DNA of 64,000 nucleotides from an uncultured Anaerobiospirillum sp. (lineage in GTDB: Bacteria; Pseudomonadota; Gammaproteobacteria; Enterobacterales; Succinivibrionaceae), in the NCBI GenBank assembly GCA_944389615.1, contig CALXNA010000011.1, positions 1-64,000 on the forward strand. Direction: 5' to 3'. Shown here in pieces: positions 36,716 through 43,498 of this stretch; the stretch's first letter is position 1; every line of letters begins with the position of its first letter. The position numbers and the translations under genes are program-made. The notes below the pieces were generated by a model that ran no database searches, was not told where the DNA came from, and was given only the letters and a program-made list of their open reading frames with translations.

Positions 36716-37210
36716 GGGGCTTAAGGCTCGCGCGGGCGCTCCGCGTGTAAGCCCCATCGGCGCCGAAGGCGCGTCAGGGTACTGCCTCACGGCGCGTGAG
36801 CGCGCATAGGGCGCGGCGCGCTTGCTGTTGCGCGGCCTTACTTTGTGGCAGCTTTGCTGTGCGTGGCCGTGCTGGCGCAGCGCCTTGCTCTGCGGCGGCC
36901 TTACTTTGTGGCAGCTTTGCTGTGCACGGCTGTGCTGGCGCGGCGCGCTTGCTGTTGCGTGGCCTTACTTTGTGGCAGCTTTGCTGTGCACGGCCGTGCT
37001 GGCGCAGCGCGCTTGCTGTTGCGCGGCCTTACTTTGTGGCGGCTTTGTTGTGCGCGGCCGTGCTGGCGCAGCGCCTTGCTCTGCGGCGGCCGTGCTTTTC
37101 GCTTTTAGCCCCGATAATGGTAAAATTGAAAAGATTTTGGTCGTAATTTGGTCGATGAGCGCCCGGTGGTACACCGGGGCCCGTGTTGGGTATGGTCGAG
37201 GTATTTTTTG
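36716..37210. other. Intergenic region between glgC and the acyltransferase gene
   Basis: 495 bp, over half of it the 63/64-bp tandem repeat (36811-37090). Just after the repeat an AT-rich stretch (37110-37150, with GATAATGGTAAAATT) could contain the promoter of the next gene. Confidence 0.5.
36811..37090. repeat. 63/64-bp tandem repeat, four copies plus a partial
   Basis: Units begin at 36834, 36897, 36961 and 37025 (GGCCTTACTTTGTGGC), with lengths 63, 64, 64 and 63; a partial unit precedes them. The mixed 63/64 period shifts frame between units, so the long open frames across it are not coding. Copies differ by a few bases, including alternative GCGCGCTTGCTGTTGC / GCGCCTTGCTCTGC segments. 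Confidence 0.9.
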
Positions 37211-41053: not shown

Positions 41054-41911
41054 ATGCAAGTTGCAAATAACACGGTAGTTACGGTTTCCTACGTCGTAAC
41101 GGACGAAGAGGGACAGGTCGTCGGTCGTACTGATCCTAAGCGCCCAGTCGTGGCTTTAGTCGGCCACGGTTATTTGGTGCCAGGCCTTGAGGCCGCCTTA
41201 CAGGGCAAGGAAGCCGGGGTGGAGTTTGCGCTGCGCCTTGAGCCTAAGGACGCCTTCGGCGAGTTCAATCCGGGCTTAGTTCAGACCATTGACCGCGCCT
41301 TATTCGGCGACTTCCCAGTGGAGGTCGGCAATGCCTTTGAGGCAGATACCTCCGCAGGCCCACGTTTAGTCGTAGTCAAGGAGATCTCCGAGAGCACCGT
41401 CACCGTAGACGGCAACCACCCACTGGCGGGCAAGACCTTAAACTTCATGGGCACGATCGAAGACGTCCGTGAGGCCACGGAAGAGGAAATTGCCCATGGC
41501 CATGCCCATCGCGATGGCGTCTGCCCATCGGAAGAGGGCGAGCATCACTGCTGCTGCGGTCACCACCATCACCACGACGATGAGGACGGCGAGCATCATT
41601 GCTGCGGTCACCACCATCACCACGACGATGAGGACGGCGAGCGCCACTGCTGCGGTCATCACCACCATCAAGATGAAGATGGCGAGCATCATTGCTGCGG
41701 TCATCACCACCATCAAGATGAAGATGGCGAGCATCATTGCTGCGGCAAGCACCACCATCATGATGAGGATGGCGAGCACCACTGCTGCGGTCATCACCAC
41801 CATCAAGATGAAGATGGCGAGCATCATTGCTGCGGTCATCACCACCATCATGATGAGGATGGCGAGCATCATTGCTGCGGCAAGCACCACCACCATCATC
41901 ACGACGAATAG
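41054..41911 (+). CDS. slyD: FKBP-type peptidyl-prolyl isomerase SlyD with expanded His/Cys metal-binding tail
   Basis: A prolyl isomerase, chaperone and metal-binding protein; in E. coli SlyD supplies nickel for hydrogenase maturation. Residues 1-150 form the FKBP fold with the IF chaperone insert (VVTVSYVV, HGYLVPGLEAALQG, DAFGEFNPGLVQ, VDGNHPLAGKTLNF, EATEEEIAHGHAH). The remaining tail, residues 162-285, consists of eight tandem units of GEHHCCGHHHHxDED type (15-17 residues) and holds 52 His and 17 Cys. The E. coli tail is about 50 residues, so this one is more than twice as long. At DNA level the units are nearly identical, indicating recent expansion. The gene is monocistronic with its own promoter and terminator. 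No hydrogenase or urease gene is in the window. Confidence 0.95.
   Translation: MQVANNTVVTVSYVVTDEEGQVVGRTDPKRPVVALVGHGYLVPGLEAALQGKEAGVEFALRLEPKDAFGEFNPGLVQTIDRALFGDFPVEVGNAFEADTSAGPRLVVVKEISESTVTVDGNHPLAGKTLNFMGTIEDVREATEEEIAHGHAHRDGVCPSEEGEHHCCCGHHHHHDDEDGEHHCCGHHHHHDDEDGERHCCGHHHHQDEDGEHHCCGHHHHQDEDGEHHCCGKHHHHDEDGEHHCCGHHHHQDEDGEHHCCGHHHHHDEDGEHHCCGKHHHHHHDE
41537..41908. repeat. Eight 45-51 bp tandem repeats in slyD
   Basis: Units start at each GEHHCC codon block (41537, 41588, 41636, then every 45 bases). Several units are identical or differ by one or two bases, mostly GGTCATCACCACCATCA versus GGCAAGCACCACCATCA. Confidence 0.9.
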
Positions 41912-41945
41912 TCCCTGCGGCCGTTAGGCTCAGGTGAGTGCAACG

Positions 41946-41975
41946 AGAAGACGCAACGCAGGTTGCGTCTTTTCG
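41946..41975 (+). terminator. Rho-independent terminator of slyD
   Basis: AAGACGCAAC, loop GCAG, GTTGCGTCTT, followed by TTCGC: a perfect ten-base stem. Confidence 0.8.
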
Positions 41976-42034
41976 CATGTAATGGCCATTTAGTGTAAGA
42001 TAGCCGCGCATTTGTAGTTTACGTTTGGTGTCTT

Positions 42035-43498
42035 ATGAAATTCATCCTCCGCCTCTTCCCTGAAATCTCGATCAAAAGTCGCCCCGTGCGCAATCGCCTG
42101 ATCAAGGTGCTGATGCAAAACCTCTTTAATGTGGCGCAGCACCATGGCTTTGACCTGAAGGTGCAGGCGCAGTGGGACAAGCTCATCGTCAAGGTGGCCG
42201 GAGATGATGAGTCCGAGCAGACGCAAACGCTGGCGGTGCGCGAGTTAAGCCGCGTGCCGGGCATCCACTCCTTTTTAGAGGTCAAGGAGTTTGACTTCAC
42301 GACCTTCGAGGACATCTTCGCGGTCGCAGGCCCGATCTATGGCCCGAGCTTAGAGGGCAAGACCTTCGCTGTGCGCGTGCGCCGTCGCGGCAACCACAGC
42401 TTCACCTCCCAAGAGGTCGAGCGCATGGTGGGCGGCATGTTCAAGGCCCATTACCCTAACAACGGCGTGTCCTTAAACCATCCGGACGTGCAGATCGACA
42501 TCGAGATCGATCAGAACAAGGCCTTCGTCATCACCCATAAGTACCAAGGCATGGGCGGCTATCCGGTCGGCTCGCAAGGGGCGGCCTTGTCCTTGATCTC
42601 TGGCGGCTTTGACAGCGGCGTCTCGACCTACAAGGCCATTCACCGCGGCATGAAGGTCAACTACCTCTTCTTTAACATGGGTGGCACCGCCCATGAGCTG
42701 GGCGTCAAGCAAGAGGCTTACTTCATCTGGGATCGCTACGCCGCTTCCCACAAGGTCAAGTTCATCACCATCCCGTTTGAGCGCATTGTGGGCCAGATCT
42801 TAGAGCGCACCCACCACGGCGTGCGCGGCGTGATCTTAAAGCGCATGATGATGCGCGTCGGCTCGGCCATCGCTCAGCGTATTAAGGCTGAGGCCTTGAT
42901 CACGGGCGAGAGTGTGGGGCAGGTGTCCTCGCAGACTGTCACCAACTTAGGCCACATCGATGCCGCCGCCGCCGTGGTGGTATTGCGCCCGCTGGTGATG
43001 GAGGATAAGCAGGACATCATCGATCAGGCCAAGGCCATCGGCACCGCAGGTTTTGCCGAGACCATGCCTGAGTACTGTGGCGTGATCTCCGATCACCCGA
43101 ACGTCTGCCCGACCCGCTCCTTTGTTGAGGAAGAGGAGGCCAAGATGGATCCGGACTTAGTCGAGGATGCCGTCGCCAAGGCCGCCTTCCTTGAGATCAA
43201 GGAGATCCCAGAGAATACCTCCAAGCTCGAGGTTGAGGTCGAGACCGTGTCCACCTTGGGCTTAAACGACGTCGTGATCGACGTGCGCTCCCCGGACGAT
43301 GCAGCCAAGGCCCCGCTTGTGGTGGCAGGCCACGAGGTCATCGCTGTGCCGTTCTACAAGATCGCCTCTGAGTTTGAGCAGCTTGATGACCTCAAGACCT
43401 ACGCGCTCTACTGCGACCAAGGTGTGATGAGCACCATGCAGGCGCGTGAGCTCAAGGAGCGCGGCCACCACAACGTCAAGATCTACCGCCCAGCTTAG
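42035..43498 (+). CDS. thiI: tRNA 4-thiouridine synthetase / thiamine sulfur carrier ThiI
   Basis: Makes 4-thiouridine at position 8 of tRNAs and passes sulfur to ThiS for thiazole synthesis. The 487-residue protein has, in order, the N-terminal ferredoxin-like and THUMP domains (VRVRRRGNHSFTSQEVER), the PP-loop ATPase (SGGFDS, 189-194), the MPEYCGVIS segment with the Cys that forms the catalytic disulphide, and a C-terminal rhodanese domain with the persulphide Cys460 in YCDQGVMS. This is the long enterobacterial-type ThiI. The gene starts 60 bases after the slyD terminator and ends before its own hairpin. Assignment is certain. Confidence 0.97.
   Translation: MKFILRLFPEISIKSRPVRNRLIKVLMQNLFNVAQHHGFDLKVQAQWDKLIVKVAGDDESEQTQTLAVRELSRVPGIHSFLEVKEFDFTTFEDIFAVAGPIYGPSLEGKTFAVRVRRRGNHSFTSQEVERMVGGMFKAHYPNNGVSLNHPDVQIDIEIDQNKAFVITHKYQGMGGYPVGSQGAALSLISGGFDSGVSTYKAIHRGMKVNYLFFNMGGTAHELGVKQEAYFIWDRYAASHKVKFITIPFERIVGQILERTHHGVRGVILKRMMMRVGSAIAQRIKAEALITGESVGQVSSQTVTNLGHIDAAAAVVVLRPLVMEDKQDIIDQAKAIGTAGFAETMPEYCGVISDHPNVCPTRSFVEEEEAKMDPDLVEDAVAKAAFLEIKEIPENTSKLEVEVETVSTLGLNDVVIDVRSPDDAAKAPLVVAGHEVIAVPFYKIASEFEQLDDLKTYALYCDQGVMSTMQARELKERGHHNVKIYRPA

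Follow-up and report, generated by a model that had tools for sequence, protein, structure and literature searches.

An eight-unit histidine/cysteine repeat on SlyD of an uncultured Anaerobiospirillum species, a candidate metal buffer in a family without detected hydrogenase

The stretch of DNA analysed here (the window, 64,000 nucleotides from an uncultured Anaerobiospirillum species of the Succinivibrionaceae) carries a slyD gene whose product consists of a two-domain core, a conserved metal site, and a long C-terminal tail that is rich in histidine, cysteine, and acidic residues (Table 1). The gene is followed by a hairpin that lies in a region with a folding z of −2.6 and is not listed by a simple terminator scan, and then by thiI. 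The adjacency of slyD and thiI (window 41054-43498) is found in most Succinivibrionaceae loci with enough flanking sequence, and was not seen in genera g12 and g13. Upstream of slyD, the open reading frame at 39918-40796 matches the ComP minor pilin family below threshold; it evolves fast (54-66% identity to the nearest species) and is conserved in position. Further upstream, positions 36810-37080 hold a tandem array of about 64 bp, with 4.3 copies and a 90% match.

Table 1. Features of the slyD locus in the window and of the nickel-related gene cluster elsewhere in the same genome.
Feature	Position	Strand	Description and basis
slyD	41054..41911	+	285 aa plus stop, ATG start; ORF call, FKBP_C Pfam match
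FKBP domain with inserted-flap (IF) chaperone domain	41054..41494	+	Residues 1-147; alignment, AF2, Foldseek
HGHAH, conserved first SlyD metal site	41495..41509	+	Residues 148-152; alignment
Eight-unit His/Cys/acidic repeat	41537..41908	+	Translation; Tandem Repeats Finder
Likely terminator between slyD and thiI	41944..41975	+	14-bp stem, 4-base loop, T-rich 3' arm; fold
thiI, tRNA 4-thiouridine synthase with rhodanese domain	42035..43498	+	TIGR00342 and TIGR04271 over cut-off
DUF362, ArsP_1 permease, Nik-like ABC, larB-larC-larE cluster	L161:2260-10440 and L164:459-3728 (contig C1, own genome)		

The core aligns with E. coli SlyD with 64 of 153 residues identical (42%) and a single one-residue gap, and E. 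coli SlyD structures are the top relatives of the window protein in the PDB (phmmer E 2e-31). An AF2 model of the core, made from a 24-sequence alignment, reaches a pLDDT of 93.9, and Foldseek ranks E. coli and Thermus SlyD first among its structural matches (TM 0.80-0.92). The best-scoring NCBIfam family is likewise the SlyD model PRK10737, with 129.9 bits; its cut-off of 174 bits is not reached, but this is a limit set by the database and does not define the family biologically, and membership was decided by fold and full-length homology. The HGHAH motif aligns with His149/151/153 of E. coli, and within the 24-sequence SlyD alignment H148, G149, and H150 are invariant and H152 almost so. The PPIase active-site residues of H. 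pylori SlyD are I47, Y73, and F137 (PMC7840056), which were equated with I42, Y68, and F132 of E. coli. The corresponding positions in the alignment with E. coli SlyD are V42, F68, and F131, two conservative changes of three, and isomerase activity is likely on this basis. Homology, predicted fold, and the HGHAH site together identify the window protein as an authentic SlyD, as the original prediction had it, with a normal FKBP/IF core carrying an enlarged tail.

Translated in frame, 41537-41908 yields the C-terminal 124 residues of SlyD, with 52 histidines and 17 cysteines in eight units, exactly the figures first claimed from the sequence. The units start at 41537, 41588, 41636, 41681, 41726, 41771, 41816, and 41861 and measure 17, 16, 15, 15, 15, 15, 15, and 16 residues; independently, Tandem Repeats Finder reports 41537-41892 with a period of 45, 7.7 copies, and 88% matches. 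The claim of nearly identical 45-bp units is true of five of the eight, which are mutually 82-98% identical, and fails for the first (51 bp) and for the second and last (48 bp each). The joining of a CC pair to a block of four to six histidines does hold in all eight units (CCC in the first), bearing out the view of the tail as a repeated array of metal ligands; every unit, about 15 residues long, offers a cysteine pair and 5-8 histidines, with acidic spacers. Pairwise comparison of the five 15-residue units reveals 19 synonymous and 14 amino-acid changing codon differences, the latter confined to positions occupied by H, K, Q, or R, while the cysteine pair is constant. A composition of 42% histidine is beyond chance. 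Counted from HGHAH, the tail comprises 138 residues with 55 His and 18 Cys in a protein of 285 residues, and is indeed more than twice as long as that of E. coli, where the entire chain has 196. A Pfam match of the tail to the Galaxin-like repeat PF24748 (33.5 bits) was set aside as reflecting the composition that Cys-rich repeats have in common.

The genome is a draft, and the contigs of three relatives (L002, L010, L027) stop inside the SlyD tail, as might be expected if the number of units had been inflated during assembly. The longest exact repeat within the array is 72 bp, however, so that reads of ordinary length are able to span it, and the units can be told apart. Collapse errors, moreover, make arrays shorter, and long tails recur across many assemblies made independently, among them that of a one-contig relative (G031) with a repeated tail. 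That an assembly artefact lies behind the eight-unit array is very unlikely. The three interrupted contigs suggest that short-read assemblies tend to break at the repeat.

Among named genomes, those of Anaerobiospirillum are the nearest, with SlyD cores 93-95% identical to that of the window. Variation in length among near relatives, which had been anticipated, is present: counted from beyond the conserved VREAT motif, the tail has 121 residues in a sister species (G005) and 143 in the window, the remainder of the protein being 93% identical. SlyD was detected in 52 of 57 Succinivibrionaceae genomes, and all 48 complete tails are expanded, to 40-138 residues from HGHxH (median 84), with 16-55 His (median 30) and 5-18 Cys (median 12). 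The window protein is the extreme of these 48 in length, His, and Cys, the last being tied. Elsewhere in the GTDB order Enterobacterales, a sample of 60 genomes reaches at most 78 residues and 26 His, and the literature gives 2-50 residues for SlyD C-terminal extensions (PMC7840056, PMC10653786). Unit motifs vary by genus (GEHHCCGHHHHDED, ECCGGHGHHHDDEH, and others) while their composition of H, C, D/E, and G is kept, as expected under selection on ligand content rather than on sequence. Mean unit identity is 0.70 within genomes against 0.52 between them, which fits a rapid turnover or homogenisation of units. Because every complete family tail is long and units are alike within genomes, the tail is old in the family and its present units young. 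The recent expansion originally proposed thus applies to the units, which turn over quickly, but not to the long tail, which is family-wide.

Both the greater likeness of units within genomes than between them and the differing unit numbers of sister species could also arise if the expansion were largely neutral, the product of simple-repeat slippage at a tolerated C-terminus. Such slippage does not readily account for cysteine pairs that are invariant within the array, nor for 48 of 48 complete tails that have kept their frame, their great length, and their abundance of His and Cys despite the drift of the repeat sequence. The in-frame, ligand-rich state of every complete tail indicates that neutral slippage alone is insufficient, and we consider a largely neutral origin very unlikely.

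SlyD tails are customarily explained via hydrogenase. In E. coli, the SlyD tail is required, together with HypB, for hydrogenase maturation (PMC7055735). E. coli SlyD resembles the window protein in its FKBP and IF domains, its HGHxH site, and its His/Cys/acidic tail, and it binds up to 7 Ni as well as other divalent cations (PMC7840056, PMC7055735). Its tail, however, has only 13 His and 6 Cys (PMC7840056) and is without the eight regular repeats, and it serves HypB and hydrogenase, neither of which was found in the genome of the window. H. pylori SlyD shares the domain plan and binds Ni and Zn, but has a tail with just 5 His and 5 Cys (PMC7840056) in an organism with both urease and hydrogenase. 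Functional likeness extends to the His-rich cytoplasmic nickel stores of H. pylori, Hpn, Hpn-2, and the also Cys-rich HspA, although the first two are free small proteins, HspA is a GroES with a tail, and all are unrelated to SlyD. It extends also to the His-rich N-terminus of HypB in other bacteria, a proposed nickel store for up to 9 Ni (PMC7055735), although HypB is a hydrogenase-maturation GTPase that is not homologous to SlyD.

The original prediction had pointed to hydrogenase and urease genes, and neither enzyme was found in the own genome of the window, a draft that is 95.7% complete, so that gene absences there are not absolute. Family-wide, the [NiFe]-hydrogenase large subunit (PF00374) was found in 0 of 57 genomes, with hydrogenase scored as present at E < 1e-50 only; weaker PF00374 matches among genomes of the order, with E of about 1e-12 to 1e-14 and often just 68 residues long, were taken as probable complex I NuoD-type proteins. 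HypB over cut-off was likewise found in 0 of 57. Several of the strongest sub-cut-off HypB matches lie near urease genes and are probably UreG, and the weak remainder resemble other P-loop proteins. Urease is clearly present in 12 of the 57 family genomes, and tail length does not differ between family genomes with and without it (p = 0.81). Outside the family, long tails do accompany hydrogenase, as a nickel reserve for hydrogenase or urease would lead one to expect: of the 23 genomes that bear hydrogenase, 20 have tails of at least 40 residues, as against 17 of the 37 that do not (Fisher p = 0.002, in a sample of 60 chosen partly for long reading frames and by a test that ignores phylogeny). 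Yet within the family hydrogenase was found nowhere and urease is unlinked to tail size, so that such a reserve is largely refuted for the own genome and scarcely credible as an explanation of the tail. Succinivibrionaceae keep or enlarge the tail without a detectable textbook client, hydrogenase, and the combination of a family-wide tail and no hydrogenase found makes it probable that the tail is retained for a different task involving metal. The window SlyD is an extreme example of a known tail type, and its interest lies mainly in the family-wide spread of the tail and its separation from hydrogenase; with the largest SlyD tails compared and hydrogenase undetected, the family provides a natural test of the tail's own role.

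Elsewhere in the same genome, contig C1 carries, all in one orientation, genes for an ArsP_1 permease, for NikB-, C-, A-, D-, and E-like components of an ABC transporter, and larB, larC, and larE. LarB, LarC, and LarE all score above NCBIfam cut-offs. The best matches of the Nik genes are for the most part nickel-type, yet these genes stay below the curated NCBIfam cut-offs, and the NikD-like ATPase scores slightly higher to staphylopine-type ATPases. Five relatives also have larB, larC, and the Nik-like transporter, and four of them larE; the fifth is G002, whose contig ends within larC, before larE could be seen. With larB/larC/larE and a Nik-like importer in the own genome, nickel is still in play, and to judge from these gene assignments it is probably imported and put into nickel-pincer nucleotide. 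LarC (L161:3122-4552, minus strand) has a long His/Asp-rich insert (HIHGPHDHDPEHGPHDHEHLHDHGHDHEHRHGHCH). NikA matches on contigs C70 and C17 score higher to DppA and were not counted as nickel importers. CbiM was found in 0 of 57 family genomes, and glyoxalase I (TIGR00068) neither in the own genome nor above cut-off family-wide.

It is conceivable that the tail is a nickel store that loads LarC, the nickel-pincer pathway standing in for the HypB and hydrogenase of E. coli. The recurrence of lar and Nik-like genes in the own genome and its relatives, the His-rich insert of LarC itself, and the presence of lar/Nik-like clusters in the very genus with the longest tails are consistent with this idea, but tails are long in genus g11 too, where no NikA-like protein was found, LarA (PF09861) is above cut-off in 0 of 57 family genomes, and no paper linking SlyD with lactate racemase was found in the literature searched. 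A dedicated LarC store is unlikely, whereas supplying nickel to LarC is plausible as a special case of a buffer.

The reading we prefer, to which we assign a probability of roughly 0.55, is that the tail is a high-capacity buffer for Ni and Zn, carried by a normal SlyD and uncoupled from hydrogenase. The SlyD tail would have been amplified into a high-capacity metal-binding polymer attached to an ordinary cytoplasmic SlyD, with acidic spacers that are expected to keep it soluble and aid metal binding. It would act as an intracellular Ni(II)/Zn(II) reservoir and buffer that loads and unloads metal, leaving conventional SlyD work to the fixed HGHAH site and the FKBP/IF domains. In Succinivibrionaceae this buffering role would be separated from [NiFe]-hydrogenase, and a plausible nickel client in the own genome would be nickel-pincer nucleotide synthesis (LarC). 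By analogy with established chemistry and the E. coli SlyD data, metal binding by the tail is very likely, though it is inferred, as are the identity of the metal, the buffering role, and delivery to LarC. In H. pylori, nickel accumulation did not need the SlyD tail (PMC7840056), showing that such tails can be dispensable. In three well-assembled long-tailed relatives (G032, G034, G035), the family-wide searches, which covered hydrogenase, urease, LarA, and glyoxalase I, turned up no known nickel enzyme, so that nickel is not proven as the metal.

Cysteine pairs favour Zn(II) and Cu(I). They are in keeping with a tail that serves chiefly to buffer or detoxify zinc or copper, or to protect thiols, with nickel being incidental, as are the retention of the tail in genomes without a detected nickel enzyme and the binding of Zn by H. 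pylori SlyD about equally to Ni (PMC7055735). The closest studied tails nevertheless act in nickel metabolism, and a role mainly in zinc, copper, or thiol protection appears improbable beside the Ni/Zn buffer preferred here.

The lar cluster without LarA is adjoined in six of six genomes by a DUF362 protein (PF04015), and this DUF362-lar cluster is the most novel by-product of the SlyD analysis. DUF362 and the LarA domain have the Pfam clan CL0471 in common, and DUF362 has served as outgroup to the LarA superfamily in published work (PMC11770544). The predicted DUF362 model, made from 9 sequences, has a pLDDT of 77, and its 16 best matches in the PDB are all of the LarA family (best E 1.2e-6, TM about 0.43). 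K184 and H200 are invariant in the alignment, and a weak profile match (E 0.48) places them on the counted Lys195 and His211 of a LarA-like enzyme, of which the first binds the cofactor covalently and the second ligates nickel (PMC12611868). Fold and alignment are thus suggestive of a candidate LarA-like client of the nickel-pincer nucleotide; none of the papers searched describes DUF362 as a nickel enzyme, and the protein beside the cluster offers a concrete candidate for a new nickel-enzyme branch. The wider proposal, that the SlyD of Succinivibrionaceae gave up hydrogenase maturation to become a general metal reservoir, which in this genus feeds a nickel-pincer pathway with a DUF362 client of LarA-like fold instead of LarA, is tentative and rather doubtful. 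The DUF362 copy nearest the cluster (L164:1408-2415, minus strand) has a signal-peptide-like start (MKLKTLAQALLLACTLGGASVQA), odd for an enzyme with a cytoplasmic cofactor, and three of the six genomes have a second DUF362 copy without a signal-like start.
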